A DNA stretch of 64,000 nt from Siphonodentalium dalli (lineage: Eukaryota; Mollusca; Scaphopoda; Gadilida; Siphonodentaliidae). Shown one piece after another: positions 34,635 to 64,000 of the stretch; position 1 is the stretch's first letter; every line of letters begins with the position of its first letter. The notes below the pieces were generated by a model, which saw only the letters and a list, made by a program, of their open reading frames with translations, was not told the DNA's origin and did not search any database. The stretch is from NCBI GenBank assembly GCA_032622095.1, contig CP136066.1, forward strand, positions 92,155,319 to 92,219,318, read 5' to 3'. A program made the position numbers and the translations under genes.

Positions 34635-35581
34635 CTGTAGGTGTTAATGTCGGAACAATCATGTCTAGAGCATGTACACATGTCAAATGCATTAACTGAG
34701 GGTGTTGCGAGCGGCGCATCGCCAGTAATTTGTTCTGTTTGGTGTTTAATTGAATCAGGGACGTGTACAGTGGGTCTTCGTTGGGGTGTCCACTTGAAAT
34801 TTACAACTGCACCCCCCCCCCCCCCCAACCAGACCAAACTCCCATGATCGCGAAATTTAATTTGCACGACACTACCCCACAATCCCTCACTTGCGTTGAA
34901 ACTATCCAACAGGTACCTCCAACTTTCAAAGTGTTGGTAACTTCCAACTGGACACCCCCTCAGGCTGGAAATGTGGCATGTTAGATTCCAAATGATACCG
35001 TGGCGTTCAAACATCAAATAAAATTCAAAACCCCGATCGAGGTTCATCATGTTACATGGACTCCCTTGCATAGTGAAAAATGATATAATCCTAATTATAT
35101 TACTCTTAGTAGCACAGAAACTTGATCGTGTTTTTGTACTTAAGTCAAGGTTTAATACCTCGTATTTCAGGATTTCCCTGACCTGTTCCCTGCACGTGGA
35201 GTAACATTTTTCTGAATGTCTAAAATAATCGGCCAAATTTCTTAATTTGTGTGTAATAATATTAAAGTAAACATTATAAATCAAACATCATAAACATGTC
35301 TGGGTGAACAACCTATCGATCTATAATAGACAGGTCGGGCTCAAATAGACTGATCGGTCTTTCACAGCCAGCATGCATATGGGATAAGGGGAGCAAACCT
35401 TTGCGATAAATCCCAAAACAACTTTGCAATAAATCACAAACATCTCAGAACATGTAGTACAGTACGTAAATAGTGTGCGATAAGCAAATACTCAACAATG
35501 GGAAGACCCCACTAATGAACTTTGGTTAATTAAAACTAACACCATGTTGTTTGCAACATGCCATTATAGCGCTCACAAAAT

Positions 35582-39020: not shown

Positions 39021-39357
39021 CTTGTTCCGTAAAATAGGAGAACACCAGCCACATGTTATCGGCAAAGCAGCTTTCCCTTCCAAGCCCCTCATGGCCAGCA
39101 CACTCGTCTTTTATTGCTCGCCTTCCGATATACAAAACTGCAGTCAGAGATAGGCCGATGCAAACCATACTGACTCCTATTATGCACCACACTGACCAAG
39201 ATAGGGGATAGAAGAGCCGGAACATCTTATCAGCTGAGTAATGCTGGTCAGTAAATCTCATTATCCCAGTGCCTTCGTCTGAAAACGGCTTAACGAAATC
39301 TATCGCCTTCTCCCTGATTTCAGTCACAGTGATTGGTCCGATAGCTAAATCTGCCTC
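39021..39357 (-). CDS. iGluR exon: end of S1, M1 and pore loop
   Basis: The acceptor is TTGTTTAAAG|GAG and the donor CAAG|GTACAT. The exon begins EADLAIGPITVTEIREKAID. The P-x-T-x4-R pattern corresponds to the GluA2 ligand residues P478, T480 and R485 and is intact, so binding of an amino-acid alpha-carboxylate is expected. FYPLSWSVWCIIGVS through LTAVLYIGR forms M1. NMWLVFSYFTEQG is the pore loop, and its residue at the Q/R selectivity site aligns as Glu (FTEQG versus the usual FMQQG). The exon is 337 bp and ends one base into a Gly codon that is completed by the next exon. Confidence 0.93.
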
Positions 39358-40607
39358 CTTTAAACAACAGAAGATACACATAACATGTCAAGACATATGG
39401 AAATTTACGTGTCAATGAAAAAGCTAACTCTGTGTTTCTAAAACTACTACAACAAATGGTATTTATAGTCAGTGAGCCCGTGAGGCCGTGATCATAAATA
39501 CATATGCCCTTTTACAAGACTTTTGCTGCACTTATGTAACAGCTTATTGTGTGCCTGTGAACTAGTTAAACAAATCAACCTATCCTGCTTGAAGAACTGT
39601 ACTATAATGTACAATAGTACACTTTTTATCTACAGCATGAGCATATTGAAGCGACACCGTAGTCGGTTAGGCCACGGAGACAATATACCACACATCATGA
39701 CACCTGCTACTAAGGATAAGCCTTAACGAAAAATAAATAGACATTTCCGCTGATACATTAGTACGACCAAGTCAACGACCACTGTTCGCGCGCAACCCCT
39801 CTGCGGAGCCTTTCGATTGACTGATACCCGTTTATAACTAATACATAACCCGTGCATGGGGTAGGTATGTTTCACTTCTGAGTTTCATCTTTTAATAAAT
39901 TAAAGGGCACCCATTTCAGTATAACCCGCAATAAGCATCAATTATTCAGTAAAAAAAGTACACCTGTGTAAAGTTCACGATTCCAATGAGTATGACTTGA
40001 CACCAAAATTGACTGACGTGGAAGAAGAAATTTATAACTGTTCATGTTCTCCATTAAATATCAATAGCTGGCAATATATCTCGTCAATGCAGACCAAAGA
40101 ACAAATAAATAATAATCATTATTTAGCAGATTCAAATGTCGAAACAATAAATCGAATTTCGATTCGCTATGTAATGTGTGAGTCATGAGAATTATTCATA
40201 ATTTGTCCATGTAACAAAAGTCACGGAGGCCTTACAAATAAACAGGTATCAACATATAAAATTCCTAGCTTTCATCCCATGGAATTTAATACCTACCCGA
40301 TAACGATGCTGGAACAGAAGGTTTATGCTTACATATCAATGATTAAGATTCACTCCAATACAAAATTCTAGCACATTTTAACTAATTCAATCCACATCGA
40401 TATTCGCATCTGTCTCATACTGCACCAAAGACAGATATTAACAATTCATGACCCCGTTCGATGTGATATTAGAAAAATAAAACACCACAGAGCATATATA
40501 ACAGGAGACTTCACCACCGACATAATACATGTTTAACGTACATGCTATGACGTTTCACTGGAGGATTCGTGCCCACGATAATATACAGTATTTTTCTTAT
40601 GACTCAC

Positions 40608-40698: not shown

Positions 40699-41500
40699 CT
40701 GAATATTTTCCATAAATAATTAATAGTCGTGATATGGTTTGTTTGAATAATTAGGGTTATACGTCATTTTAGCCATTAGGCCGCATTTTAAAATTGAAAA
40801 ATATTAAGCGAATCAACTGTCTATATTTGTAACCGTGAAGTTGAACATTAGAACAAAATATATACAAATAAATCACACAAATCAGAGCGAGAGTGTTCGA
40901 TTGTGGTCAGAACCATTATGAAACTGACAATTGTGCAAATACATATTAAGCAGAATATCAGAACAGTTAGAACTACTGCTTTGAGAAGAGCAAACCTAAA
41001 AACATGATGAAATGTAATCAGCAAAGATGAATAATTTAATGTATCTAGGGCTCCATATCGAAATATGTGAAGTAGCTGACAATCTCGCCTCCTGGATGAT
41101 TGATAACGATATTTATAATATCTGATGAATCCAGTGTGAGTCTTAATCAATTCACCAAGTTGACATTCGGGTGGTTGACTCAGTAGGTGATCTCTCTCCC
41201 AACGGTCAGCTCCCTCCACTCACATATATGGGTGTCCCCTTCTCTCAAAGTTGATCCTTTCTCGATCTCGAAGCATTGTATCGACCTTGAAAACTCAAGC
41301 ATCAACATATGTTTCTGAGAGTCAAAAAAAATGACAGACCTTGGAGATTTTTGTTTTGGAACAATATGGTCAACGTATATAGATTGTTTCTCAACGACAA
41401 AAGCGGTATCCATTACCTGCGCTACATGTTCTGGCAGAGGAATAATACACTGCCAAAAATATTTTCTCAATTCAGGAAAAAAAATAATCTTGAAATGAGA
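40699..41500. other. upstream of the identified receptor exons; no exon confirmed
   Basis: This is where the preceding S1 exon might be expected. Minus-strand frames at 41219-40848 and 41470-41180 are open, but they show no iGluR motif and no phase-compatible donor before an S1 sequence that I could recognise. Confidence 0.45.
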
Positions 41501-42604: not shown

Positions 42605-43254
42605 TTAAACTTTAAATATACAATCAACAATTTCTCGTTACAGTTATGGTTTTCTAAAATTGCAAGTGGCCAAACAAGATACTGTGTACATTCGCGAAAT
42701 GAAACTACAAAGTACCTGTATCTTGTTCTGCCTCTTAAAATTGTAAAAACCTATATATGCAACAAAAAATATATTGATTGCTAATAATTACATCCCGACA
42801 CATGATTTTCAATATATTTATAGAAAGAGTTACCTCAAATCTGTCGGTTGCAAAAAAAATATATAACAATTTCTGTTATTTGAGTATCCAGTTCAAACGA
42901 TAGGAAAAAAATCATCACACATGACAAAACAAGCACTGTGTGTGCCTTAATAAACATCGTAACCCTGTATTTTTAAATGCACATATTCTAGGACGGGTGA
43001 TGTGTAATAAACACAGAAAGACACTTGTATTAATGGATTTGTTGATACGGCACTTGTGCCATTGAGGAAAGATAGAACTCTAGGGTGTGCTGTTCATTCC
43101 GTCATTGTGCGCTAGCACTCGTGTCATATCAACAAACCCATAAACAAAATTGTGTAATTCTGTGTATATACAGCATGGTTTCAATAGCTGTTTCATGAAT
43201 CATGCAGATTGCAGGTTTACTGTTCAGGTACTAGCCCAAGTCTTTTCGGTATGC

Positions 43255-43515
43255 AACAGCTTGAGATGTCGAATACAGTAATGCCCCCGAGTATAATCGA
43301 CTCCTTAAACACAGTAGAATTATGGGTAACTTTTCAGGATTTAGTCGGAAATATGGCTTGTTGCCATTCATCGGAAAGCTCTCTGAGAGCTTTCCGATGA
43401 ATGGCAACAAGCCATATTTCCGACTAAATCCTGAAAAGTTACCCATAATTCTGCTGTGGTTAAGGAGTTGATTACTTAGAGCATTACTGCAGTTGAAACT
43501 GTTTTGGATCGACTC
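43255..43515. repeat. long near-perfect foldback centred at 43384
   Basis: From 43321 to 43383 and 43385 to 43447 the two arms are exact inverted copies with a single T at the centre (GAAAGCTCTC-T-GAGAGCTTTC). Beyond that the arms continue to about 43255 and 43515 with increasing mismatches (ACTCCTTAA.CACAG.AGAATT). The inner arms have not diverged at all, which suggests a very recent origin, arm conversion, or an assembly/cloning artefact. Confidence 0.92.
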
Positions 43516-43550
43516 CTGTCCGGCTACTCTTCTATAACCTCTCAAGATTT

Positions 43551-43727
43551 TGAAGTGTTGAATGGGTCACCATGAATCGCTCAATTAAACAATCGCAACG
43601 GTGTTGAGTGTTTTGCTCATCGCTCACTATTTACTGCTGTATATAAACAAACGATTGACTCACACAAAGTGTGTTTTGTGGATAATAACGCATTCATATG
43701 AACATTATCCTATACTATTAGTATATT
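43551..43727. repeat. dispersed repeat, copy B
   Basis: Diverged relative of 35582-35755, starting immediately after the foldback at 43255-43515. Confidence 0.75.
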
Positions 43728-45253
43728 CTTGGGAAACTTTTTGTAAATGTTATTTATAAATTATAACCTATAACGAAGGCCATCCATTCCTTTAAGTTCC
43801 AAAGATATAAGGAGAATCACTGCATTTTAATTGCATACCGCATCCATCGTGGTGCTGTTTTGTGTTCAAGTGACAACCTTACCATGGTGTTGGAAATTAC
43901 TGCAGTGTAATACCACAGCATTACCTGGGTAACACCACGTTAGAGATGGTCAATTACTTTAAGTATATGCAGGTTTGAAATCATCACGCTTGGGAAAGGT
44001 TGCCCTCTATGTTCTTATAAAAAGCGTCACTTTGACCTAATCTGAAGAAATACTGGTAGTGCTACAATCAAGATAACTTCAGCCCACAATTCTGGGCGTA
44101 AACTCCATTAGAGAAGAGCATCGGGGTGGGACTCGGTCAAAAACAGCATCAACCCAACCGATACCACAAGGTGTGGACCGGGAAAACTTGGTCTAAACAG
44201 GTACTAATGCATGCATGTATTACAAGTATTAAAGGGTACACTAAATCCAGCCATTTATGAGACCATCTCCTTTTATACTCAACAGAATATATGCAACAAA
44301 TGAATGAATTTGGCCCATGGATAAGTGCAACACTTGTGTGTTCTATGAACAGTGCAAACAACATGGTATTTATAATGAAAATGAATTATTGGCTGGAGTC
44401 ATAAATTCATTTTGATTATAATTTATACATGTTGTTTGCATATAGTCTGCTGTTTATAAAAGGAGATGCTCTGTAAAACACTGCAATATGGAACTTAAAG
44501 AGCTTTGATCTATCTTCTACTGGAAACAACTGTTAAATTTATTAAGACTTTATCAAGTCTTTTCACAGTATAGACTACATGTTAGTATAGCACTAGTACT
44601 CACTATTATTTCCAGACTTTTTGTGATAAAAATGCAGATAAAAGTGCAGAATTACATGTACATATACTTGTTTTAAATTGATGCATTAAGTGCATGAGCG
44701 GCTTTAGAGTTCTTTGAAGTGCGGTCATGCAAAATAACATAAAAGTTTGAAAAAAGGTACATGTACATACTACTATGATTATAGCGGTATGAAGTGTCTG
44801 GAGCACCTTTGATGGATAAAAGCGAATGTAAAACAGGCCTTAAAATTTTGCAAGAATCAAACTATAGCATTTCTACATCAAATCAGCTGCTTTTTACCAG
44901 ACTCAAACTAAGAATCATGATACTGACTCTCATCATACTAAAATCCCTACACAATAATCTAATGGTGCGCAGGTATTTCATTGAGTGTTTCAAATTATTT
45001 TAAAGGGACCCAAGGCACTCACAGTGAGTAAATATGCCAAAACATATAACATACAACAGTTCGTAAAAACATCACCGCTAAGAAAAACATGAATAACTGG
45101 TTGATATATTAATTATTGAAAGTTTTCCAATAACGAAATTTCTCCTGTTGGAACCATTGTAACAAAACTGTTACAGTGATTTGTCAAAGATTTTATTACC
45201 GGTAGTCTAAATATTATTTTCAGAATATTTTTCAATGCTTTGGCATTGCAATG
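43728..45253. other. non-coding stretch
   Basis: No gene or RNA recognised. An imperfect inverted pair (ACAACATGGTATTTATAATG and CATTTTGATTATAATTTATACATG, about 44360-44432) is visible. Confidence 0.45.
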
Positions 45254-45515
45254 TTTAACCCTTTCATGATGGGAGCTGCGCTGGTGCAGCATTAAAGATC
45301 ATGTACCAGTGAATTCTTGTATATATACAAGTCTCACATAGCGAGCCTCACATGTATAAGAGAATGCACTGGATTACAAGGTCACGGTAAATATTGTTAG
45401 GCCATGTTTTCTCTAATATATGTGAGGCTCCATTTTGGAGACTCGCAAATATAAGAGAATGCATTGGCACAGGGTTTTAGCAAAATTTCAGGAATCTCCA
45501 GTAATGGAAGGTTTT
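45254..45515. mobile_element. dispersed MITE-like repeat, longest copy (copy 2)
   Basis: Starts AACCCTTTCATGATGGGAGC. Its end CTCCAGTAATGGAAGG is roughly the inverted equivalent. Internally TATAAGAGAATGCA(C/T)TGG occurs twice. Related shorter copies lie at 34107-34230 and 52118-52246. No coding capacity. Confidence 0.7.
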
Positions 45516-47019
45516 AGTTTTTATTAAACTTTGGCATCTTATTGGACTTATTCAACATTGGTTGGTAATGTCACTGTAACAGTGATGTTTGTCATAATTG
45601 CTAGCATGCAATGCCATTCTTTCGTATAAATTAAATAACTCACAGAATATCGAAAGACCAGATGTGAGTATAATATAAATTTATCACCCCATTTTATGCA
45701 GGGATACAAAAAATAAACATACATGTAACATATGTTATGCTTTAAAGTCAACATGGATAATTAAAGGTAAACAGTCTGATTGATGGTCTCCATATCATAA
45801 GATTCCAAGAACAACATTTCTTAATCAATTAATTACCAAAACATAATGCTAACTACTGTCAACTCTAGTGTAACATTTTGTTCATCGCAACTTGGTATCA
45901 AGATTATGTCAGTCGACTCAGTCGGCTCTTTGTATATTTTCTAGGCCGGGAAATATTCAAGGTGGTGAAAAATAACAGATTTCAAAAATTTATATTTTAT
46001 AACTCAGAACTTTAAAGGGTTTGTTCCTCGACTCGATTCAATTATTTTTACCCCTGAAGCCAAATAAATGGTAATTGAGGAGCGTGAACTCGGATTATCT
46101 ATATTTAAATGTACATGTATTGTATGGTACATGTATAAGCCACTTTAAGCTCTTGTACAGATTACTTGGTGTACAGCAGGTTGACAAAGATAAAGGAACA
46201 TTAGAATATTTTGATTCTGTTATGGATTTTAAGGCCTACATACTGCAATCATTTGTCACTTAAAAGTTCATATCCTTCAGATAAGCTCAGAAACAAGGCT
46301 TAAGACTGTTCCATGGGCACTGTTGTGGTTTGTCAAAGTTTGTGTGGAGATTTGACACTGGTACACCTCCAAATTCTGGTCAATGTTGTATGAAATATAA
46401 AACAGTTTATGCATACGCTGGATGCCATTGTGCACATTTTCTGAGACTCGGTGACGCATACAAGTACATGTATGTTGTAGTACTCTAATTGAATTCACTT
46501 GCCAAGATTTTCACCTCATAAGTCTGATAAAATGTAGAGGTCACTGATCAGTCTCCACCAAGGAATGAATGCATACATATATGTGTCATTATTTTCCTTG
46601 GATGAACACATTGAACGTCATTTGGTTATAAATTAAAGCCTCCATTTCGCTGCAGTGTGCACTAGTTACCAGGTATGCAATACTATGCATGGTACCGGAT
46701 TCAGTGCATACCATCCGTAGGTATACATATAGTACTGTGGTTCATGTGTATAGCCAGGAGACTCAGGATTTACTGTCACACATCAACAACACACATTGTG
46801 GCATGCATGGACGAATACCGATAACATATACAGTACATGTATCCAGTACATGTACACCGAATAACATTTGAAATCCTTCCTCGTCCAGTCTTGGGCAGAA
46901 TTAATAATATTGGTATTAAGGGTCACCATGCAGTGTCTGCAAGAAGCACTCAGGAAACATGATTCTATGATTGGTTATCAGATATCAGGCCTTGATTGAA
47001 ATTTTGATGTCTCAATCCA
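45516..47019. other. non-coding stretch
   Basis: AT-rich with many ACATGTA runs. Short open frames have no domains. Nothing further supported. Confidence 0.45.
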
Positions 47020-47400
47020 GTCAAGCAGCTCCTCCTGTCTGAAAAAAAGATTTGAATGCTTGTAATGACGTCAGAAAAGAGGAAAGACTGATCATATACA
47101 TATTATTAAGATACATCATCCCCTCCCCCATGAATGACTAAAATAAAATTTCACTCATTTGATATACCGGTATGTTTAATACTTGAACAAACAAAAATAA
47201 AAAACAAACTTAAATCTCATAAAACATTTATTTTCTGGCCATTTCAGGGTCAAACGATATTAAATGAGTGAATTTTCTTTTAGTCATACATGGGGGAAAA
47301 CGCCCAGGGTGTGCGAGTGAGATATCTGAAGACATTCGCAAATAGCACTCCCCCATGGGGGAAGATATACATGTATATCCAGACAGGAGGAGATGACATG
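47020..47400. repeat. imperfect foldback, about 370 bp
   Basis: CAGCTCCTCCTGTCTG (about 47027) is inverted at about 47379 (CAGACAGGAGGAGATG). Also CCCCCATGAATGACTAAAAT with TTTCACTCATTT (47125-47160) is inverted at 47258-47295 (AATGAGTGAATTTTCTTTTA...CATGGGGGA). The middle of the arms has diverged. Confidence 0.65.
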
Positions 47401-48884
47401 TTACACCGGTACATGTACTAAATGCTACCAAAAACATTCCAGATACATGTATAGGTACCGGTACCGTATATCATATTGGTCTTGTAAATATCATATATTT
47501 GTAAATGTTTTAAGAAGGCAATTTAAACAGTTTGGGGGGGGATTTAAACAGTTTGGGGGGGGGGGCAAATTGGCATTCCAAATACTAATTAACACTTGAA
47601 AGCCTGACATGTGGCACCCCAAATGTCAATATAACATTTGATTTTATCATCTTTACTTGAATTAGGTGAGTTCACAAATACTCTATTTCCATGCATATAC
47701 TAGTAAACACAATTATACATAATCATTGGGGAATTGAAAAAATTATACTGTATAATATACAAGCATATGTATACTAGAAGATAGCGGCACAAACTAGTAC
47801 TTCTGCATGTCAAATATCACACATACCAGTATATACCACTTACTAGTATACTGCGAATTGACTTCTTTAAAAATATTGGCCATCATATCAGGGAGGGGGC
47901 GGGGAATTTCCGGGCACGTATGCCGGGGTGGATGGGTGATTGATGGGACCAACAAACATTCTTTTCCGCAACTAAAATGTTTTTATCCTGCAAGTCGTTT
48001 GACTGTTTTTGCAATGAGTTTGGCTTAAAACACATACAATAAGAGAAATACAGATAACATAAATGACAAATTTCATGATGATCAGACAAACAGTATAGCT
48101 TGTAGCTCATGTTAATGGATTCAATTTTGAAATCCAAGATGGCCACCGGCAGCCATGTTTTTTTTGCTGAATGACCCCAAAATGAGTCATTCCTATTTAC
48201 ATGTCAACATCCAAAACAATTAGTATGCGCATAAATTCATATACAGCTGTTTACAGTGAATCTCCCCCCCCCCGGGCCCCCCCCCCCGCAAATCTGTTTT
48301 ATTGTCAAAAGGGCGGGGTGGATGTTTGGACGCGGGGGTGGGTGGGTCCCAACAAGGGTCGAAAGGAAAATATCAGCATACGTGCCTGAACATTTTTTCC
48401 GACCCCCTCCTCCCCCGATCATATGGCCATTTTCGTCCATTTTTCCAACTATACTTTCTATAGGACATGGGAATGCTTGATAGAAAAGTTGTATTGTTAT
48501 ATACAACTACCGTAGTAGGGGGTTAAATGTAGCACACCATGAAATTTGAAGTTGCTGACATTGTTTCTGGTGTCAATTTATAAACTCCACCCACCGCCTG
48601 TTGTCAGGCCGCATTGATTGGCATTACACAAACAGGCATGGAAATACAGGTTGTATTAATTTTCAACTTTTGGTGTGATATCTTTTGGTGTATCATAACT
48701 ACACGGTACTGTAGTTCCACAACAGTGACCGTGGCTAATGAATCTGGCAATATCTGTAATTGGAAGAAATATATGCTGCATATATATACATGTATGTGAT
48801 ATGGATACATGTATTTTCATAATTTGCAAACATATTTATAAACAAAGTGTAAAGTTCATTCTTCCAACAATGTGAGCGTCCTCG
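47401..48884. other. non-coding stretch with homopolymers and a repeat relic
   Basis: Contains direct repeats ATTTAAACAGTTTGGGGGGG (about 47520 and 47544) and C/G homopolymers at about 48265-48287. A copy of the AAGATGGCC repeat (48115-48175: AAATCCAAGATGGCCACCGG, AGCCATGTTTTTTTTG) is also present. No gene supported. Confidence 0.5.
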
Positions 48885-49156
48885 GCAATTCAGATGACCA
48901 TGATTCAATCGTACATGTAAGTGGAGGAATCGGGCCTGACAAAATCATGGATAGTTTGTTGACACGATTACGATGTCATCGCAGATGAGTATATTATCGG
49001 CGGTTAACCATGTGATTAATTACCCTATGTGTTTTCCATTTACTTTATACGATTTTTAAGTACACACACGTTCTGATTCAGTCACAAGTGGAAATAACCA
49101 AGGATACGCCACAAGTTCGCATCTAAAATCAAACAGTGCTTGGTTACGTAGCGTTT

Positions 49157-49367
49157 TTCCGAAGACCCATAACTCCGAAGGTCCGATTCTCCGAAGGTCC
49201 GATTCTCTGATTGTCCGAAAGCCCATAACTCCGAAGTCCCGATTCTCCGAAATCCCATAACTCCGAAGACCCATAACTCCGAAAGCCCATAACTCCGAAG
49301 GCCTATAACTCCAAACGCCCATAACTCCGAATGTTTATAACTCCGAAGGTCCGATTCTCCGAAGATC
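49157..49367. repeat. tandem array of 16-bp units, orientation 1
   Basis: About 13 units alternating ATAACTCCGAAGGCCC and GATTCTCCGAAGGTCC types. The overlapping minus frames (repeats of SELWAFG/RRIGPSE) are artefacts of the array. Confidence 0.93.
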
Positions 49368-49404
49368 ATGTTTTATCGCTTATTAAATAGTGTACAGTCT
49401 AGTG

Positions 49405-49677
49405 GCGGGGTCAATGGGGCCCTAGGGAAGACCGCCCCCAAAAAACATGTCAAATGTCATGTAAACGTCAGGAAATCCCTCCTATGCATTCAAATATTCA
49501 CAGTGTTCCTGCCCAGGGGAGCCCCCGGACCAACGATTGGGGGCGACCCCTCCCATGTATGCGCTCCCCAAATCAGGCCTTCGTGATATGCTTTCGGCAT
49601 ATCATATGCATGATATATCCCCCACATATGCTAATTAATGTGCACCCCTAAATGGGAAACCCTGGCTCCGCCACTGG
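49405..49677. repeat. CAGTGGCG-type TIR element, inner copy 1
   Basis: AGTGGCGGGGTCAATGGGG at the left is answered by CCCTGGCTCCGCCACTGG at the right, a short inverted terminus seen in many small animal elements. The body is G/C-rich with no ORF of note. Confidence 0.6.
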
Positions 49678-49835
49678 TGTGCACCGGGTATATTATAAAG
49701 AAACGCTGCAAGAATGTCAGAGTAGCCTAACATGCACAGGGTGACAGGGGCGACAAGTTCTTCCCCGTTCACCCCTGTACATTTTACTCTGGCATCTCAT
49801 GGGCCAACGTAACGTTATAGTATCTGGTGTATAGT

Positions 49836-50031
49836 CAGTGGCGGGCCAGGATTCCTATTTAGGTGGGGGCAGTAGGAAAAGTTTGAATATTTTGATGCCC
49901 CATGAACGATTTCCGGGCGTTTACATGACATTGGACATGTTTTGGTAGGGGCCCATATTGTCTGAAATAGCAAGTAGAGGTTTAATGGGGGCAGTGGGAA
50001 TTTTGGGACCCCCTTGGCTTCGCCACTGGAC
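49836..50031. repeat. CAGTGGCG-type TIR element, inner copy 2
   Basis: CAGTGGCGGGCCAGG at the left and CCTTGGCTTCGCCACTG at the right; about 196 bp. The ends fit a hAT-like CAG-G start, but no 8-bp flanking duplication was seen. Confidence 0.6.
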
Positions 50032-50072
50032 TGTACACTATTTAGTAAACGATAATACCCCGATAAAACAAA

Positions 50073-50470
50073 ATCTTCGGAGAATCGGACCTTCGGAGAA
50101 TCGGACCTTCGGAGTTATGGGCCGTCGGAGAATCGGGCCTTCGGAGTTATAGGTCTTCGGAGAATCGGCCCTTCATAGTTATAGGTCTTCGGAGAATCGG
50201 CCCTTCGGAGTTATGGGCCGTCGGAGAATCGGGCCTTCGGAGTTATAGGTCTTCGGAGAATCGGCCCTTCATAGTTATAGGTCTTCGGAGAATCGGCCCT
50301 TCGGAGTTATGGGCTTTCGGAGAATCGGATCTTCGGAGTTATGGGCCGTTGGAGAATCGGGTCTTCGGAGTTATGGGCCGTCGGAGAATCAGGTCTTCGG
50401 AGTTGTGGGCCGTCGGAGAATCGGGTCTTCGGAGTTGTGGGCCTTCGTAGTAATAGGTCTTCGGAAAACC
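50073..50470. repeat. tandem array of 16-bp units, orientation 2
   Basis: About 24 units of GGGCCTTCGGAGTTAT and CGGTCTTCGGAGAATC types, in inverse orientation to 49157-49367. A larger repeat is visible inside: ATAGTTATAGGTCTTCGGAG recurs at about 50167 and 50272. Mixed with TTCGGAGTTGTGGGCC variants at the right. Confidence 0.93.
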
Positions 50471-50611
50471 GGTCTGACACCCAGTGCTTGATATTACTTT
50501 TTATCACGCGCGATCATGTCATGAGCATACTTAGTAAAACTACCGGTTACTACATACAACGAAATCTTTCCACTTACGATTGAATCGTGATCATCAGAAC
50601 ATTCACTTAGT

Positions 50612-51000
50612 GAGCGTTCAGACGACCATGATTCAATCGTAATTGGAAACTTTTCCGTCGTAGGAAGTAACCGCTAATCGGACTGCGCATGCTCACATCA
50701 AAATCATAGGTCAAAAATACTATCAAGCACTGTTTGATTTTAGATGCAAAATAGCAGCAAAATTGTGGCGTATCCTAGGTTTGATACCACCACTTGTGAC
50801 GCAAAATTCGCAGTCGTGTGTACGTAAAAATTGTAGCTGGAAATGACAAGGGTAGTCAATCACATGCTTTAGGATGTTCAACCTACGGTATAATCATGTA
50901 CGACAACATCGCAATTGTGTGAACAAACTATCCACGATCACGTCGGGCCCGATTCCTCCACTTACGATTGAATCGTGGTCGTCTGAACGTACACTTAGTG
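50612..51000. mobile_element. palindromic element II, adjacent short copy
   Basis: Starts with AGCGTTCAGACGACCATGAT and ends with the inverse ATCGTGGTCGTCTGAACGT (50972-50990). Its right half (AAACAGTGCTTG / GATACGCCAC region inverted, 50725-50775) matches the left half of element I (49095-49140). Lacks the internal arrays. Elements I and II abut around CACTTAGTG (about 50606-50614). Confidence 0.7.
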
Positions 51001-51975
51001 TTGAATTGGCCACACAATAACTTGAGTGTGAATGCCATGGGCATTTTAATATTATCAGGTTCACATTTGTTCAAAATAATGCTATGAAGAAGTACCTTTA
51101 TATACAATTGTCTTTCAACTTCAAGTTATATTTTCAATAAACGTGACCATTTTGTTTTCCAACTACCGGTATTGTCATATTAATCTCGACCGATAATACA
51201 CAGAAATTATGGCTTTATGCCAGAATTAGATTTTGCAGAGTAAAGTCTAAAGATTCCCATTCACGCAATACTTTTTTTTTATATAGCATAGAAATTAAGC
51301 ACAAATTAGAACTTAATAAAAACCGTTTTTGCAAAGTTTCCCAGTTTTGCGAATATTGTTGAGTGGTACATTGATATACGAATGATCAATGCGTATAATC
51401 ATAGTCCATCAGATGTTACTATTTTAACATGATAAATCATAACATATGGCAACCCGATCATCGTTTTCTAAAATTTCGTACATATTTCACCCACAGTAAA
51501 ATTCACGATCATTTCATTTCAAAAACATGGATAAATCACGGAATTGTAATCGTAGTTCAATTAAGTATATCACTCGTAACAACTTGTTCGTAAAGAGAAA
51601 ACACTTCAACAGTTTACATATTAAGTTCACTTACCTGTATCAAGCGAAGAGTTTATTTCCGACATTGAAAATAATTTGTTGTCAAAATGGACGAACAAGC
51701 CGACCGCGTGAGTTGACGAGACACACTAAAACTTGTAGTCCCAGTCCGAGTCCAGTAAAACGTGTAGTTGGGATTATCAATTTCGTCCATCCCAGAGATC
51801 TAGTATATTTTATAAAAGAGACATTTTCTGCACAGATCTATACCATTTGCATGGTCATAAAAGGTATCTAGTGATTACTCATATGGTGGGCCTATATAGA
51901 CTTGAGTGATGTGTTTTGGCCTGTGCCATTTAAAATTAATTCAGGGGGTGGGGGGGGGAAATCAATGCATATTAA
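51001..51975. other. non-coding stretch
   Basis: A 114-codon plus frame at 51527-51871 has no recognisable domain and no splice context. Nothing else supported. Confidence 0.45.
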
Positions 51976-52094
51976 TTTTTATTTGCGATTAAGCGCAAAT
52001 GATTTACGCTTAAATATAAATATTTGCGCTTAAGCCCAAATGATAGAGGTTATTTGCACTTAAGCGCAAATATTTGTGCCCAAGCGTAAATAAA
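51976..52094. repeat. cluster of TTTGCGCTTAAGCGCAAA palindromes
   Basis: Six half- or full palindromes of the form TTTGCGCTTAAGCGCAAAT occur within 120 bp (near 51981, 52000, 52022, 52051, 52066 and 52080), some degenerate. They would form alternative hairpins or cruciforms. Confidence 0.8.
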
Positions 52095-52117
52095 TAATAA
52101 ATGTGAAAAGGGCCTCC

Positions 52118-52246
52118 CATATATGACCATTGCGGGAATTGCGCTGGTGCTGCATTAAAGACCATGTGCTAGAGCATTCACTTATATATGTGAGTCATCC
52201 ATATGGAGCCTCGCATCATATATAAGAGAATGCACTGGCTTACAAG
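52118..52246. repeat. dispersed MITE-like repeat, copy 3, at the satellite edge
   Basis: GACCATTGCGGGAATTGCGC, GGTGCTGCATTAAAGACCATG and ATATAAGAGAATGCACTGGC match copies at 34107 and 45254. The satellite array begins within a few bases of its end, so it marks the array boundary. Confidence 0.75.
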
Positions 52247-55200
52247 GCTTGCCAATAAACTAAACATTTCTCAGGTTATTGCATGCACTTTTAATACACA
52301 GGGCAAGGTAGATTACATCATTTGATAGATATTCTAGAATTTCTAGTTTGTGAAAACTAACTTAAAGCCATATTTTATGCACCCTGTCTAGCCGACTGAA
52401 CTATGAACTATAGACATGTTATTATTTTTATTATCAGAGACATACCTTCTGCCAAGATATAGCCTTATACATTATAAACATGCAAATAGTTGCTTCATTT
52501 GGGCTAACTTCCATCATTTAGCGAGTCAAATCTGAGGAAATTCTCTTAGTTTGAAAGTTGTAGCATGCCTGGCCCGCTGAATTGATGTCACAAACATCAA
52601 ATGTTAGTACTTCTTGTCAGATGGACATTTCTGCCAATAAACTAAACATTTCTCATTGCAATTGTATGCATTTTAATACACAGAGCAAGGTAGATTACAT
52701 TATTTGATGGATATTTTACTTAAAATAGTCTGTGGAAACAACCTAAATGCCATATTGTATGCATCCATGTATAGAAAAATGAAATACAACTATGGATATT
52801 TTATTGTTTTTTTTCATCAGAGACATTCATTCTGCTAAGATATAGCCTTATACATGTTACAAACATGCTAATAGTGGCTTCATTGGGCTTTTTTTCATCA
52901 TTTGGACAGTTAAATCTGAAGAAATTGCCTTAGTTCGAAGTTTATAAGATCACAGTGCCCCATGAAATGGTGTCTAAAATCTCAAATGTTAGTACTTCTT
53001 TATCAGATGGATATCTCTGCCAATATATTAATCAATTCTCATGATCATTGCATGGATTTTAATGTACAGGGCAAGGTAGATTACATTATATTTTGGATAT
53101 TTTACTTTAAATATTTTGTGGAAACTACCTAAAAGCCATATTGTATGCATCCATGTATAGCCAAATGAAATACAACTATGGATATTTTATTGTTTATTTC
53201 ATCAGAGACATGTATTCTGTTCAGATATAGCCTTATGTATGTTATAAACATGCCAATAATGGCATCATTTAGGCTTTTTTTCCATAATTTAGAGGGTCAA
53301 AGCTGAATAAATTCCCTTATTTCAAATTTGTAAGATGCCAAGCCAGCTGAAATGGTGTATCAAACCTCAAATGGCAGTATTTCTTATCAGATGGACATCT
53401 CTACCAATAAATGAAACATTTTTCATGGTCATTGCATGCATTTTAATATACAGGACAAGGTAGAAAACATCATTTGATGGATATTTTACTTAAAATAGTC
53501 TGTGGAAACAACCTAAAAGCCATGTTGTATGCATCCCTGTATAGCCAAAACAAATTAAACTATGGATATTTTATTGTTGATTTCATCAGAGACATGTATT
53601 CTGTTGAGATATAGCCTTATATATGTTATAAACATGCACATAGTGGCTTCATTTGGGCTTGCTTCCATAATTTAGAGAGCCAAACCTGAAGAGATTCCCT
53701 TATTTTAAATTTGTAAGATGCCAAGCCAGCTGAAATGGTGTATCAAACCTTAAATGGCAGTATTTCTTATCAGATGGACATCTCTCCCAATAAATTAAAC
53801 ATTTCTCATGGTCACTGCATGCATTATGATATATAGGGCAAGGCAGAAAACATTATTTGATGGATATCTTACTTAAAATAGTCTGTGGAAACTACATAAA
53901 AGCAATATTGTATGCATCCCTCTATAGCCAAATGCAATTAAACTATGGATATTTTATTGTGTATTTTATCAGATAAATGTATTCTGTTGAGATATAGCCT
54001 TATACATGTCATTAATATGCAAATAGTGGCTTCATTTGTGCTTTCTTCCATTATTTAGAGAGTCAAATCTGAAGAAATTCCCTTAGTTTGATATTTATGA
54101 TCCCATAATCCCATGAAATGGTATTTAAAACCTCAAATGTCAGTATTTCCTATCAGATGGACATATCAACTAATAAATTAAACATTTCCCATGGTCATTA
54201 CATGCATTTTAATATACAAGGCAATGTAGAAAACATCATTTGATGGATATTTTACTTAAAATAGTCTGTGGAAACTACATAAAAGCAATATTGTATGCAT
54301 CCCTGTATAGCCAAATCAAATTAAACTCTGGAGATTGTTTTGTTTATTTCATCTGAGACATGTATTCTGTTCAGATATAGCCTTATGTATGTTATAAACA
54401 TGCCAATAATGGCATCATTTAGGCTTTTTTTCCATAATTTAGAGGGTCAAAGCTGAATAAATTCCCTTATTTCAAATTTGTAAGATGCCAAGCCAGCTGA
54501 AATGGTGTATCAAACCTCAAATGGCAGTATTTCTTATCAGATGGACATCTCTACCAATAAATGAAACATTTTTCATGGTCACTGCATGCATTTTAATATA
54601 CAGGACAAGGTAGAAAACATCATTTGATGGATATTTTACTTAAAATAGTCTGTGGAAACAACCTAAAAGCCATGTTGTATGCATCCCCGTATAGCCAAAA
54701 CAAATTAAACTATGGATATTTTATTGTTGATTTCATCAGAGACATGTATTCTGTTGAGATATAGCCTTATGTGTGTTATAAACATGCCAATAATGGCATC
54801 ATTTAGGCTTTTTTTCCATAATTTAGAGGGTCAAAGCTGAATAAATTCCCTTATTTCAAATTTGTAAGATGCCAAGCCAGCTGAAATGGTGTATCAAACC
54901 TCAAATGGCAGTATTTCTTATCAGATGGACATCTCTACCAATAAATGAAACATTTTTCATGGTCATTGAATGCATTTTAATATACAGGACAAGGTAGAAA
55001 ACATCATTTGATGGATATTTTACTTAAAATAGTCTGTGGAAACAACCTAAAAGCCATGTTGTATGCATCCCTGTATAGCCAAAACAAATTAAACTATGGA
55101 TATTTTATTGTTAATTTCATCAGAGACATGTATTCTGTTGAGATATAGCCTTATGTATGTTATAAACATGCCAATAATGGCATCATTTAGGCTTTTTTTC

Positions 55201-58200
55201 CATAATTTAGAGGGTCAAAGCTGAATAAATTCCCTTATTTCAAATTTGTAAGATGCCAAGCCAGCTGAAATGGTGTATCAAACCTCAAATGGCAGTATTA
55301 CTTATCAGATGGACATCTCTACCAATAAATGAAACATTTTTCATGGTCATTGCATGCATTTTAATATACAGGACAAGGTAGAAAACATCATTTGATGGAT
55401 ATTTTACTTAAAATAGTCTGTGGAAACAACCTAAAAGCCATGTTGTATGCATCCCTGTATAGCCAAAACAAATTAAACTATGGATATTTTATTGTTGATT
55501 TCATCAGAGACATGTATTCTGTTAAGATATAGCCTTATATATGTTATAAACATGCAAATAGTGGCTTCATTTGGGCTTGCTTCCATAATTTAGAGAGCCA
55601 AACCTGAAGAGATTCCCTTATTTTAAATTTGTAAGATGCCAAGCCAGCTGAAATGGTGTATCAAACCTTAAATGGCAGTATTTCTTATCAGATGGACATC
55701 TCTCCCAATAAATTAAACATTTCTCATGGTCACTGCATGCATTATGATATATAGGGCAAGGTAGAAAACATTATTTGATGGATATCTTACTTAAAATAGT
55801 CTGTGGAAACTACATAAAAGCAATATTGTATGCATCCCTCTATAGCCAAATGCAATTAAACTATGGATATTTTATTGTGTATTTTATCAGAGACATGTAT
55901 TCTGTTGAGATATAGCTTATACATGTCATTAATATGCAAATAGTGGCTTCATTTGGGCTTTCTTCCATTATTTAGAGAGTCAAATCTGAAGAAATTCCCT
56001 TAGTTTGATATTTATGATCCCATAATCCCATGAAATGGTATTTAAAACCTCAAATGTCAGTATTTCCTATCAGATGGACATATCAACTAATAAATTAAAC
56101 ATTTCCCATGGTCATTACATGCATTTTAATATACAAGGCAATGTAGAAAACATCATTTGATGGATATTTTACTTAAAATAGTCTGTGGAAACTACATAAA
56201 AGCAATATTGTATGCATCCCTGTATAGCCAAATCAAATTAAACTATGGAGATTGTTTTGTTTATTTCATCTGAGACATGTATTCTGTTCAGATATAGCCT
56301 TATGTATGTTATAAACATGCCAATAATGGCATCATTTAGGCTTTTTTTCCATAATTTAGAGGGTCAAAGCTGAATAAATTCCCTTATTTCAAATTTGTAA
56401 GATGCCAAGCCAGCTGAAATGGTGTATCAAACCTCAAATGGCAGTATTTCTTATCAGATGGACATCTCTACCAATAAATGAAACATTTTTCATGGTCATT
56501 GCATGCATTTTAATATACAGGACAAGGTAGAAAACATCATTTGATGGATATTTTACTTAAAATAGTCTGTGGAAACAACCTAAAAGCCATGTTGTATGCA
56601 TCCCTGTATAGCCAAAACAAATTAAACTATGGATATTTTATTGTTGATTTCATCAGAGACATGTATTCTGTTGAGATATAGCCTTATGTATGTTATAAAC
56701 ATGCCAATAATGGCATCATTTAGGCTTTTTTTCCATAATTTAGAGGGTCAAAGCTGAATAAATTCCCTTATTTCAAATTTGTAAGATGCCAAGCCAGCTG
56801 AAATGGTGTATCAAACCTCAAATGGCAGTATTACTTATCAGATGGACATCTCTACCAATAAATGAAACATTTTTCATGGTCATTGCATGCATTTTAATAT
56901 ACAGGACAAGGTAGAAAACATCATTTGATGGATATTTTACTTAAAATAGTCTGTGGAAACAACCTAAAAGCCATGTTGTATGCATCCCTGTATAGCCAAA
57001 ACAAATTAAACTATGGATATTTTATTGTTGATTTCATCAGAGACATGTATTCTGTTGAGATATAGCCTTATATATGTTATAAACATGCAAATAGTGGCTT
57101 CATTTGGGCTTGCTTCCATAATTTAGAGAGCCAAACCTGAAGAGATTCCCTTATTTTAAATTTGTAAGATGCCAAGCCAGCTGAAATGGTGTATCAAACC
57201 TTAAATGGCAGTATTTCTTATCAGATGGACATCTCTCCCAATAAATTAAACATTTCTCATGGTCACTGCATGCATTATGATATATAGGGCAAGATAGAAA
57301 ACATTATTTGATGGATATCTTACTTAAAATAGTCTGTGGAAACTACATAAAAGCAATATTGTATGCATCCCTCTATAGCCAAATGCAATTAAACTATGGA
57401 TATTTTATTGTGTATTTTATCAGAGACATGTATTCTGTTGAGATATAGCCTTATACATGTCATTAATATGCAAATAGTGGCTTCATTTGTGCTTTCTTCC
57501 ATTATTTAGAGAGTCAAATCTGAAGAAATTCCCTTAGTTTGATATTTATGATCCCATAATCCCATGAAATGGTATTTAAAACCTCAAATGTCAGTATTTC
57601 CTATCAGATGGACATATCAACTAATAAATTAAACATTTCCCATGGTCATTACATGCATTTTAATATACAAGGCAATGTAGAAAACATCATTTGATGGATA
57701 TTTTACTTAAAATAGTCTGTGGAAACTACATAAAAGCAATATTGTATGCATCCCTGTATAGCCAAATCAAATTAAACTATGGAGATTGTTTTGTTTATTT
57801 CATCTGAGACATGTATTCTGTTCAGATATAGCCTTATGTATGTTATAAACATGCCAATAATGGCATCATTTAGGCTTTTTTTCCATAATTTAGAGGGTCA
57901 AAGCTGAATAAATTCCCTTATTTCAAATTTGTAAGATGCCAAGCCAGCTGAAATGGTGTATCAAACCTCAAATGGCAGTATTTATTATCAGATGGACATC
58001 TCTACCAATAAATGAAACATTTTTCATGGTCATTGCATGCATTTTAATATACAGGACAAGGTAGAAAACATCATTTGATGGATATTTTACTTAAAATAGT
58101 CTGTGGAAACAACCTAAAAGCCATGTTGTATGCATCCCTGTATAGCCAAAACAAATTAAACTATGGATATTTTATTGTTGATTTCATCAGAGACATGTAT

Positions 58201-61200
58201 TCTGTTGAGATATAGCCTTATATATGTTATATACATGCAAATAGTGGCTTCATTTGGGCTTGCTTCCATAATTTAGAGAGCCAAACCTGAAGAGATTCCC
58301 TTATTTTAAATTTGTAAGATGCCAAGCCAGCTGAAATGGTGTATCAAACCTTAAATGGCAGTATTTCTTATCAGATGGACATCTCTCCCAATAAATTAAA
58401 CATTTCTCATGGTCACTGCATGCATTATGATATATAGGGCAAGGTAGAAAACATTATTTGATGGATATCTTACTTAAAATAGTCTGTGGAAACTACATAA
58501 AAGCAATATTGTATGCATCCCTCTATAGCCAAATGCAATTAAACTATGGATATTTTATTGTGTATTTTATCAGAGACATGTATTCTGTTGAGATATAGCC
58601 TTATACATGTCATTAATATGCAAATAGTGGCTTCATTTGGGCTTTCTTCCATTATTTAGAGAGTCAAATCTGAAGAAATTCCCTTAGTTTGATATTTATG
58701 ATCCCATAATCCCATGAAATGGTATTTAAAACCTCAAATGTCAGTATTTCCTATCAGATGGACATATCAACTAATAAATTAAATATTTCCCATGGTCATT
58801 ACATGCATTTTAATATACAAGGCAATGTAGAAAACATCATTTGATGGATATTTTACTTAAAATAGTCTGTGGAAACTACATAAAAGCAATATTGTATGCA
58901 TCCCTGTATAGCCAAATCAAATTAAACTATGGAGATTGTTTTGTTTATTTCATCTGAGACATGTATTCTGTTCAGATATAGCCTTATGTATGTTATAAAC
59001 ATGCCAATAATGGCATCATTTAGGCTTTTTTTCCATAATTTAGAGGGTCAAAGCTGAATAAATTCCCTTATTTCAAATTTGTAAGATGCCAAGCCAGCTG
59101 AAATGGTGTATCAAACCTCAAATGGCAGTATTTCTTATCAGATGGACATCTCTACCAATAAATGAAACATTTTTCATGGTCACTGCATGCATTTTAATAT
59201 ACAGGACAAGGTAGAAAACATCATTTGATGGATATTTTACTTAAAATAGTCTGTGGAAACAACCTAAAAGCCATGTTGTATGCATCCCTGTATAGCCAAA
59301 ACAAATTAAACTATGGATATTTTATTGTTGATTTCATCAGAGACATGTATTCTGTTGAGATATAGCCTTATGTATGTTATAAACATGCCAATAATGGCAT
59401 CATTTAGGCTTTTTTTCCATAATTTAGAGGGTCAAAGCTGAATAAATTCCCTTATTTCAAATTTGTAAGAAGCCAAGCCAGCTGAAATGGTGTATCAAAC
59501 CTCAAATGGCAGTATTTCTTATCAGATGGACATCTCTACCAATAAATGAAACATTTTTCATGGTCATTGAATGCATTTTAATATACAGGACAAGGTAGAA
59601 AACATCATTTGATGGATATTTTACTTAAAATAGTCTGTGGAAACAACCTAAAAGCCATGTTGTATGCATCCCTGTATAGCCAAAACAAATTAAACTATGG
59701 ATATTTTATTGTTGATTTCATCAGAGACATGTATTCTGTTGAGATATAGCCTTATATATGTTATAAACATGCAAATAGTGGCTTCATTTGGGCTTGCTTC
59801 CATAATTTAGAGAGCCAAACCTGAAGAGATTCCCTTATTTTAAATTTGTAAGATGCCAAGCCAGCTGAAATGGTGTATCAAACCTTAAATGGCAGTATTT
59901 CTTATCAGATGGACATCTCTCCCAATAAATTAAACATTTCTCATGGTCACTGCATGCATTATGATATATAGGGCAAGGTAGAAAACATTATTTGATGGAT
60001 ATCTTACTTAAAATTGTCTGTGGAAACTACATAAAAGCAATATTGTATGCATCCCTCTATAGCCAAATGCAATTAAACTATGGATATTTTATTGTGTATT
60101 TTATCAGAGACATGTATTCTGTTGAGATATAGCCTTATACATGTCATTAATATGCAAATAGTGGCTTCATTTGTGCTTTCTTCCATTATTTAGAGAGTCA
60201 AATCTGAAGAAATTCCCTTAGTTTGATATTTATGATCCCATAATCCCATGAAATGGTATTTAAAACCTCAAATGTCAGTATTTCCTATCAGATGGACATA
60301 TCAACTAATAAATTAAACATTTCCCATGGTCATTACATGCATTTTAATATACAAGGCAATGTAGAAAACATCATTTGATGGATATTTTACTTAAAATAGT
60401 CTGTGGAAACTACATAAAAGCAATATTGTATGCATCCCTGTATAGCCAAATCAAATTAAACTATGGAGATTGTTTTGTTTATTTCATCTGAGACATGTAT
60501 TCTGTTCAGATATAGCCTTATGTATGTTATAAACATGCCAATAATGGCATCATTTAGGCTTTTTTTCCATAATTTAGAGGGTCAAAGCTGAATAAATTCC
60601 CTTATTTCAAATTTGTAAGATGCCAAGCCAGCTGAAATGGTGTATCAAACCTCAAATGGCAGTATTACTTATCAGATGGACATCTCTACCAATAAATGAA
60701 ACATTTTTCATGGTCATTGCATGCATTTTAATATACAGGACAAGGTAGAAAACATCATTTGATGGATATTTTACTTAAAATAGTCTGTGGAAACAACCTA
60801 AAAGCCATGTTGTATGCATCCCTGTATAGCCAAAACAAATTAAACTATGGATATTTTATTGTTGATTTCATCAGAGACATGTATTCTGTTGAGATATAGC
60901 CTTATATATGTTATAAACATGCAAATAGTGGCTTCATTTGGGCTTGCTTCCATAATTTAGAGAGCCAAACCTGAAGAGATTCCCTTATTTTAAATTTGTA
61001 AGATGCCAAGCCAGCTGAAATGGTGTATCAAACCTTAAATGGCAGTATTTCTTATCAGATGGACATCTCTCCCAATAAATTAAACATTTCTCATGGTCAC
61101 TGCATGCATTATGATATATAGGGCAAGGTAGAAAACATTATTTGATGGATATCTTACTTAAAATAGTCTGTGGAAACTACATAAAAGCAATATTGTATGC

Positions 61201-64000
61201 ATCCCTCTATAGCCAAATGCAATTAAACTATGGATATTTTATTGTGTATTTTATCAGAGACATGTATTCTGTTGAGATATAGCCTTATACATGTCATTAA
61301 TATGCAAATAGTGGCTTCATTTGGGCTTTCTTCCATTATTTAGAGAGTCAAATCTGAAGAAATTCCCTTAGTTTGATATTTATGATCCCATAATCCCATG
61401 AAATGGTATTTAAAACCTCAAATGTCAGTATTTCCTATCAGATGGACATATCAACTAATAAATTAAATATTTCCCATGGTCATTACATGCATTTTAATAT
61501 ACAAGGCAATGTAGAAAACATCATTTGATGGATATTTTACTTAAAATAGTCTGTGGAAACTACATAAAAGCAATATTGTATGCATCCCTGTATAGCCAAA
61601 TCAAATTAAACTATGGAGATTGTTTTGTTTATTTCATCTGAGACATGTATTCTGTTCAGATATAGCCTTATGTATGTTATAAACATGCCAATAATGGCAT
61701 CATTTAGGCTTTTTTTCCATAATTTAGAGGGTCAAAGCTGAATAAATTCCCTTATTTCAAATTTGTAAGATGCCAAGCCAGCTGAAATGGTGTATCAAAC
61801 CTCAAATGGCAGTATTTCTTATCAGATGGACATCTCTACCAATAAATGAAACATTTTTCATGGTCACTGCATGCATTTTAATATACAGGACAAGGTAGAA
61901 AACATCATTTGATGGATATTTTACTTAAAATAGTCTGTGGAAACAACCTAAAAGCCATGTTGTATGCATCCCTGTATAGCCAAAACAAATTAAACTATGG
62001 ATATTTTATTGTTGATTTCATCAGAGACATGTATTCTGTTGAGATATAGCCTTATGTATGTTATAAACATGCCAATAATGGCATCATTTAGGCTTTTTTT
62101 CCATAATTTAGAGGGTCAAAGCTGAATAAATTCCCTTATTTCAAATTTGTAAGATGCCAAGCCAGCTGAAATGGTGTATCAAACCTCAAATGGCAGTATT
62201 TCTTATCAGATGGACATCTCTACCAATAAATGAAACATTTTTCATGGTCATTGAATGCATTTTAATATACAGGACAAGGTAGAAAACATCATTTGATGGA
62301 TATTTTACTTAAAATAGTCTGTGGAAACAACCTAAAAGCCATGTTGTATGCATCCCTGTATAGCCAAAACAAATTAAACTATGGATATTTTATTGTTAAT
62401 TTCATCAGAGACATGTATTCTGTTGAGATATAGCCTTATGTATGTTATAAACATGCCAATAATGGCATCATTTAGGCTTTTTTTCCATAATTTAGAGGGT
62501 CAAAGCTGAATAAATTCCCTTATTTCAAATTTGTAAGATGCCAAGCCAGCTGAAATGGTGTATCAAACCTCAAATGGCAGTATTACTTATCAGATGGACA
62601 TCTCTACCAATAAATGAAACATTTTTCATGGTCATTGCATGCATTTTAATATACAGGACAAGGTAGAAAACATCATTTGATGGATATTTTACTTAAAATA
62701 GTCTGTGGAAACTACATAAAAGCAATATTGTATGCATCCCTGTATAGCCAAATCAAATTAAACTATGGAGATTGTTTTGTTTATTTCATCTGAGACATGT
62801 ATTCTGTTCAGATATAGCCTTATGTATGTTATAATCATGCCAATAATGGCATCATTTAGGCTTTTTTTCCATAATTTAGAGGGTCAAAGCTGAATAAATT
62901 CCCTTATTTCAAATTTGTAAGATGCCAAGCCAGCTGAAATGGTGTATCAAACCTCAAATGGCAGTATTTATTATCAGATGGACATCTCTACCAATAAATG
63001 AAACATTTTTCATGGTCATTGCATGCATTTTAATATACAGGACAAGGTAGAAAACATCATTTGATGGATATTTTACTTAAAATAGTCTGTGGAAACAACC
63101 TAAAAGCCATGTTGTATGCATCCCTGTATAGCCAAAACAAATTAAACTATGGATATTTTATTGTTGATTTCATCAGAGACATGTATTCTGTTGAGATATA
63201 GCCTTATATATGTTATAAACATGCAAATAGTGGCTTCATTTGGGCTTGCTTCCATAATTTAGAGAGCCAAACCTGAAGAGATTCCCTTATTTTAAATTTG
63301 TAAGATGCCAAGCCAGCTGAAATGGTGTATCAAACCTTAAATGGCAGTATTTCTTATCAGATGGACATCTCTCCCAATAAATTAAACATTTCTCATGGTC
63401 ACTGCATGCATTATGATATATAGGGCAAGGTAGAAAACATTATTTGATGGATATCTTACTTAAAATAGTCTGTGGAAACTACATAAAAGCAATATTGTAT
63501 GCATCCCTCTATAGCCAAATGCAATCGAACTATGGATATTTCATTGTGCATTTTATCAGAAACATGTATTCTGTTGAGATATAGCCTTATACATGTTATT
63601 AACGTGCAAATAGTGGCTTCATTTGGGCTTTCTTCCATAATTTAGAGAGTCAAATCTGAAGAAATTCCCTTAGTTTGATATTTATGATCCCATAATCCCA
63701 TGAAATGGTATTTTAAACCTCAAATGTCAGTATTTCTTATCAGATGGACATATCAACTAATGAATTAAACATTTCCCATGGTCATTACATGCATTTTAAT
63801 ATACAAGGCTATGTAGAAAACATCATTTGATGGATATTTTACTTAAAATAGTCTGTGGAAACTACATAAAAGCAATATTGTATGCATCTCTCTATAGCCA
63901 AATGCAATCGAACTATGGATATTTCATTGTGCATTTTATCAGAAACATGTATTCTGTTGAGATATAGCCTTATACATGTTATTAACGTGCAAATAGTGGC
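52247..64000. repeat. 384-bp satellite array with higher-order repeats
   Basis: About 30 head-to-tail monomers of 382-385 bp, all non-coding, running past the window end. Using GATATAGCCTTA as register, monomers start at 52456, 52839, 53224, 53607, 53991, 54374 and so on to 63961. The first two are strongly diverged. From 53224 three main types recur: A (ATGCCAATAATGGCATCATT), B (TATATATGTTATA with GGGCTTGCTTCC) and C (ACATGTCATTAATATGC with TTTGATATTTATGATCCC). Their order is ABC, AAABC, AABC, ABC, AABC, ABC, AAAABC', C'. Same-type copies are nearly identical while types differ clearly, which defines a higher-order repeat. Confidence 0.95.

Follow-up and report, generated by a model that had tools for sequence, protein, structure and literature searches.

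A 384-bp satellite array with higher-order repeats inside a dispersed inverted-end DNA transposon of the scaphopod Siphonodentalium dalli

Here we report the analysis of a 64,000-nucleotide stretch of the genome of the scaphopod mollusc Siphonodentalium dalli (assembly GCA_032622095.1, contig CP136066.1, positions 92,155,319 to 92,219,318 of the forward strand; hereafter the window), the right-hand part of which is occupied by a tandem array of monomers of about 384 base pairs (bp) with higher-order organization. The array lies between the ends of a large DNA transposon, and we conclude, with a probability of roughly 0.88, that it is an internal component of this inverted-end, seemingly non-autonomous element and was expanded by unequal exchange. 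A preliminary description of the window, made from the sequence alone, had proposed a centromeric or heterochromatic satellite. The position of the array inside a dispersed transposon, together with a monomer copy-number check that gives an estimate of about 1 Mb genome-wide, speaks against that proposal, and the array is most likely transposon cargo rather than a centromere satellite, carried by a family with hundreds of members. In those that were read, the array is located near the right end of the element, usually within the same edge monomers, and its block pattern varies from copy to copy.

Architecture of the enclosing transposon

The ends of the element are inverted, with CACTGCCAAAAATA on the left and TTTTTGGCAGTG on the right, and are of the CACTG...CAGTG type (Table 1). 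The inverted repeat, measured in one 13-kb copy, extends over about 49 bp at 80% identity. The 2-bp flanks are identical on both sides in all five copies in which both ends were read (TA in four, TG in one). Four copies of about 13 kb each (c2–c5), in which about 0.9 kb separates the array from the right end, are alike between one fixed left point and one fixed right point, at the terminal repeats. Beyond the ends their alignments stop, except for short matches to the left of c2 and c4 (0.5 kb at 72% and 119 bp at 87%) and to the right of c4 (80 bp), which look like other repeats. For six further arrays read with their right ends, homology gives out at the terminal repeat, give or take a few bases, in 15 of 15 pairs. 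Element ends enclose the array at independent sites, and both ends were read in c2–c5 and in the window copy.

The first 2 kb of the window copy is 98.6% identical to a 13-kb copy, and window positions 43190–52251 (the extent covered by the fetched piece) are 95–98% identical to a copy at C1:92.44 Mb, with 95% identity in the right tail. Because the middle of the element is less similar to a 13-kb copy (Table 1) than to the copy at C1:92.44 Mb, the family comprises at least two subfamilies.

Within the middle, 16/32-bp minisatellites occur in opposite orientation at 49158–49373 and 50027–50514, their best arms spanning 181 nucleotides with 77% complementarity; similar minisatellites are present in the C1:92.44 Mb copy, and the pair is a possible large foldback. 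Just ahead of the array, a palindromic 20–21-bp unit occurs in three imperfect copies (51980–52044). Positions 52060–52260 yielded 3,188 first-look genome candidates, six times the number for the array, so a repeat of higher abundance may account for part of this segment.

Table 1. Features of the window copy of the transposon and of its array, in window coordinates (L001, next contig piece).
Feature	Position	Strand	Remarks
Window copy of the transposon	41448–64000, on to 65382 (L001:1382)	+	C6:92196766-92220700, 23,935 bp
Target-site duplication TA, left	41446–41447	+	Right copy TA at 65383–65384 (L001:1383-1384)
Left terminal inverted repeat, CACTGCCAAAAATA...	41448–41496	+	Exact word 41446–41461; opposite end 65371–65382 (L001:1371-1382)
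Element middle, subfamily-specific	43420–52251	+	65–90% identity to one 13-kb copy where alignable; no protein domain
Left edge monomers E, F, G	52252–53403	+	Diverged from other monomers; E-F 52252–53019, G from 53020
Higher-order part, monomers 4–30	53404–63756	+	d s / p q q d s / p q d s / p d s / p q d s / p d s / p q q p d s
Nested higher-order period of 7 monomers, monomers 9–26	55322–62222	+	About 2.68 kb; d s p q d s p; shift-7 run
Right edge monomer t and partial last monomer U	63757–64000 within the window	+	t 63757–64141, U to 64471; from typing

Monomer types and higher-order units

In the output of Tandem Repeats Finder, a period of 384 bp with 30.6 copies runs from 52252 to the end of the window. 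With the contig read past this point, the array comprises 32 head-to-tail monomers of about 384 bp at 52252–64471, namely 31 complete monomers and a last partial one of about 330 bp, and it overruns the window end by 471 bp (one alternative estimate of its end is 4 bp shorter). Monomer starts are spaced 382–386 bp apart over the entire array. The head-to-tail arrangement and regular spacing claimed in the preliminary description are borne out, and the array start that it placed at 52247 moves to 52252.

A first clustering of monomer distances covered the window and four other copies at thresholds from 4% upward; a 5% threshold was applied to 17 arrays with 181 monomers and then to 37 arrays with 322 monomers. 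Clustering gives the window order E F G d s p q q d s p q d s p d s p q d s p d s p q q p d s t U. Among monomers 4–30, mean within-type identity is 98.9% for p (n = 7), 99.2% for q (n = 6), 99.7% for d (n = 7) and 98.7% for s (n = 7), the least identical same-type pair reaching 96.3%. Between types, by contrast, mean identity in the window is 83–85% for s against p, q or d, 91.0% for p–d, 94.6% for p–q and 95.4% for q–d. Since p, q and d start to merge at thresholds of 7–10% and s remains separate, the first three types are closely related to one another.

Clustering, run as a check, agrees with the earlier contrast between near-identity within types (here 96–100%) and divergence between them (here means of 83–95%). 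The earlier block list, with A corresponding to p or q, B to d and C to s, stands for monomers 3 (at 53020) to 31, except that its first A is the edge monomer G, preceded by E and F. Its division of A into classes A1–A4 does not hold. The four motifs behind these classes are located where they had been placed, or a few bases away, and the A1 motif occurs in seven s and three q monomers, one of the three A2 matches in d, and A3 in three q and one p. Because the A1–A3 motifs cross monomer types, A1–A4 are shared variants rather than classes.

At a shift of seven monomers, monomers 9–19 match monomers 16–26 in type, forming an 11-monomer run with 99.69% identity; 5,000 free shuffles gave no run of this kind longer than 9. 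The excess of type-matched identity at this shift over within-type shuffling has a permutation p of 0.0004 (20,000 shuffles), and recent array changes therefore probably include multi-monomer duplications. When the six blocks were kept intact and shuffled as units, a run of at least 11 appeared in 9 of 180 orders, and block order by itself is weak evidence for the shift-7 period. Typing and the shift-7 tests support the earlier proposal of a higher-order structure with gain and loss of whole monomers, as expected from unequal exchange. The array has the marks of a higher-order satellite: distinct monomer types and near-identical multi-monomer units.

The window array is the longest of the 37 typed, by a factor of two, and of nine copies with both edges matched (12.4 kb compared with 3.1–6.4 kb between edge matches); we do not claim it as the longest in the genome, since the searches may overlook long arrays. 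Such a length raises the question of whether the 32 monomers, or their block order, are an assembly artefact of a shorter array. Neither the window nor the adjoining contig piece contains an N, the spacing stays in register and the units are told apart by variants, and the 16-monomer copy at C1:92.45 Mb likewise repeats a six-monomer block, all of which makes an artefact quite improbable.

Variation among copies

The other 36 typed arrays hold 5–16 monomers. All 37 arrays were kept, including the strongly diverged L039, L012-like arrays with unnamed types, and those with odd spacing (L013–L021, L029, L033, L038 and L046); the piece with L016 ended before the right edge, and its 9 monomers are a minimum. 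The odd spacings seen in some of these arrays represent breaks out of register. Monomer U is the final unit in 34 of the 37 arrays, and E-F-G also starts nine other typed arrays (L010–L015, L018, L020 and L021).

Retention of these edge monomers in most typed arrays might mean that the array benefits the element, for example in transposase binding or in spacing the ends, and that its expansion was selected; the authors who described the transposon Tetris proposed a comparable role for its repeats (PMC4079207). None of the four terminal words was found in the majority monomer, and the distance of the array to the right end is about 0.9 kb. Matches between the monomer and the rest of the element are weak (best E 0.16), and the idea that the monomer arose elsewhere in the element was set aside on the same grounds. 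We regard an element benefit as unlikely, and the array of the transposon family is probably without host function.

An immediately repeated block of at least two monomer types is present in nine of the 37 arrays, the window included, a count that is no frequency because the arrays were picked from best-scoring matches. The repeated blocks are d s p d s t, twice, in L010; d s p in L011; s t in L013; F together with an unnamed type, oddly spaced, in L016; p, an unnamed type, s and t in L019; and p s in L040, L041 and L043. Compared from the array to the right flank, L040 and L041 are 99.6% identical over 4.07 kb and L043 is 97.5% identical to L040; each alignment breaks off at most a few bases from the terminal repeat, with no match into the right flanks. 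The presence of near-identical blocked arrays beside unrelated right flanks indicates that transposition copies higher-order arrays to new places.

The subfamilies also differ in their units. In that of the window, L010 and L011 have d-s-p units without q; in the other (c2–c5 and L027–L035) the units are p-q-q(-q)-s, without d. The q–d junction of the window has no match above 97% among 39 scored candidates. These patterns do not support the ancestral A1-A2-A3-B-C unit envisaged in the preliminary description, and the window array may combine the monomer sets of both subfamilies or may retain an older state.

Genomic abundance and dispersal

In the window's own assembly (2.23 Gb, nine contigs), the best-scored matches to an array query fall on all nine contigs as short clusters. 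A 20-base word from the left terminus, with at most one mismatch, occurs 667 times genome-wide (reversed control, 1), and a 24-base monomer word, under the same condition, 2,072 times (control, 0). Since the latter is carried by 257 of the 322 typed monomers, we estimate about 2,600 monomers, or about 1 Mb (0.045% of the genome), a figure calibrated on a typed monomer set that is not random. Rough first-look candidate numbers are similar for the left end (547), the array (512–531) and the right tail (470).

Arrays and element ends also go together in position. The first 100 of the 2,072 monomer-word matches form 27 clusters scattered over 143 Mb of C1, each with at most 5.4 kb between its outer matches. 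For 15 of the 17 exact C1 termini on that stretch, an array cluster is located no more than 30 kb away and on the side and strand expected; no terminus has a cluster on the wrong side or strand, and one of the two misses falls beyond the monomer matches listed.

The monomer types and higher-order units resemble alpha-satellite organization, as they would if the array were a centromeric or pericentromeric satellite with a transposon inside or alongside it by chance. Against this stand the shortness of the other 36 typed arrays, the spread of the best-scored matches over all contigs, the termination of the arrays inside the same element and the small estimated total. The CENP-B-box core was not found in the majority sequence of the window monomers, and exons of an ionotropic glutamate receptor-like gene lie 2–7 kb to the left of the element. 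Nor did we see long arrays at one place per chromosome among the monomer matches listed, the centromeres themselves being possibly unassembled. A centromeric or pericentromeric satellite of this kind seems to us highly improbable. In a separate check for telomere-like motifs, TTAGGG, CCCTAA and CCTAA were not found in the first 600 bases of C1.

Superfamily assignment and coding content

CACTA/EnSpm (CMC) elements have CACTA or CACTG ends and a short target duplication, of 2–3 bp. The family described here shares both features, with CACTG termini and a 2-bp duplication, and differs in that no transposase was found; judged by its ends alone, it fits a CACTA/EnSpm-like assignment. The right flanks of 12 copies read TA in seven, TG in four and CA in one. 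The TG and CA flanks are a misfit to Tc1/mariner elements, which insert at TA only, and that superfamily is disfavoured.

No credible Pfam domain was detected in 18 open reading frames. Nine of these, of at least 95 amino acids, come from the part of the window copy that precedes the array, two of them crossing the left end; the other nine, of at least 90 amino acids and one of them in two pieces, belong to a single 13-kb copy. One frame matched Bombesin with E 0.013; this match falls below the curated cut-off and within a minisatellite, and was dismissed. The genome contains 78 matches to PF02992, the Tnp2-type transposase family. Twelve of them, each with one in-frame TAG, occur within about 5 Mb at C7:18.86-23.97 Mb, and other families are more spread.

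Sequence surroundings

Left of the element, the Lig_chan and Lig_chan-Glu_bd exons of the receptor-like gene are located at 34360–34800 and 38962–39387 on the minus strand. A position of the element inside the receptor gene was considered and rejected, because no match to PF01094, the amino-terminal domain family, lies nearby among the matches listed; the element may be intronic or outside the gene. Two reverse transcriptase-like pieces, both on the minus strand, were also noted: an RVT_1 match at 23174–23881 (E 2.5e-16) and, right of the window, a match at L001:4655-5515 (E 0.00055, under the cut-off).

Relation to known systems

In primate alpha-satellite DNA, diverged monomer types recur as near-identical multi-monomer units. 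The present array follows the same pattern of types and units; unlike alpha-satellite, it is borne by an element, reaches tens of monomers at most and is not centromeric by the tests made. Helitrons are not known to have inverted ends with a target duplication.

That tandem arrays inside transposons can grow into satellites is established, and a table of cases has been compiled (PMC9659126). One close parallel is Tetris, a foldback transposon of Drosophila virilis with TIR-220 repeats. Like the family described here, which seems non-autonomous too, it is a non-autonomous DNA transposon, and the number of monomers in its internal tandem array varies; its repeat arrays reach 66 copies, unequal crossing-over has been proposed for them and a complete transposase-bearing element was not found (PMC4079207). 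The Tetris repeats, by contrast, are about 220 bp long and lie within long terminal repeats, and the term 'higher-order' is absent from the main text of that article (PMC4079207), whereas the array studied here is internal, near one end, with higher-order units between edge monomers that recur.

In Crassostrea gigas, Helentron/HINE elements are likewise dispersed mobile elements with short central satellite-like arrays (PMC7492417, PMC10048060), and arrays of up to about 90 monomers occur within elements of this type (PMC10048060). They differ in being rolling-circle elements with monomers mostly of 160–180 bp, and 'higher-order' does not appear in PMC7492417. The Tc1/mariner element miDNA4 of Xenopus also has an internal satellite of variable copy number (PMC12628747); it is a miniature inverted-repeat transposable element, whereas copies here measure 13–24 kb and their target dinucleotide is not always TA. 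Invertebrate satellites with higher-order repeats are known, for example in morabine grasshoppers (PMC7754599). In the literature covered, which is partial, we found no report of higher-order repeats arising within the arrays of one transposon family, which is weak evidence of novelty.

Discussion

Several points weigh against a transposon-borne array expanded by unequal exchange. The 37 typed arrays were taken from best-scoring matches and not at random, some of them through a block-junction query. Searches with array queries omitted the window's own array, although the window's edges were returned, and long arrays elsewhere may therefore be missed. The length of the window array is based on the assembly alone. 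Neither a transposase nor an autonomous partner of the family was found among the sequences searched, in a test that spans open reading frames of at least 90–95 amino acids, so that genes of small exons would escape it. On C1–C3, moreover, all 41 PF02992 matches are more than 60 kb from any of the 85 exact termini listed, the nearest being 60.6 kb away, and on these contigs no link between the family and an EnSpm transposase emerged.

On the mechanism that we favour, which is drawn from one assembly, the family would be mobilized by the transposase of a different element. In the intervals between transpositions, the array would gain or lose whole monomers, singly or in groups, through misaligned homologous exchange or through gene conversion, and multi-monomer units would form in a subset of copies; subsequent transposition would then carry the new array to other sites. 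In the window copy, these steps would have led to expansion to 32 monomers, with units of 3–6 monomers and a nested 7-monomer unit. We infer homologous unequal exchange or gene conversion because the register of the window array is constant, arrays differ by whole monomers, like monomers are near-identical within the copy and the edge monomers recur; the out-of-register breaks in some other arrays indicate that other events occur too.

More broadly, we lean towards the view that one dispersed family holds hundreds of bounded arrays, in which differing higher-order repeats arose repeatedly and then spread by transposition. If so, the family would offer a replicated natural experiment on how higher-order repeats originate away from centromeres and without centromere selection. 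The origins of such repeats are usually studied in huge centromere arrays, in which the early steps are overwritten. Here, short arrays with recurring ends, at many independent sites and with several unit types, would allow a side-by-side comparison, and the predictions of unequal exchange and of centromere selection would become testable by counting. An alpha-satellite-like organization need not mean a centromeric satellite.

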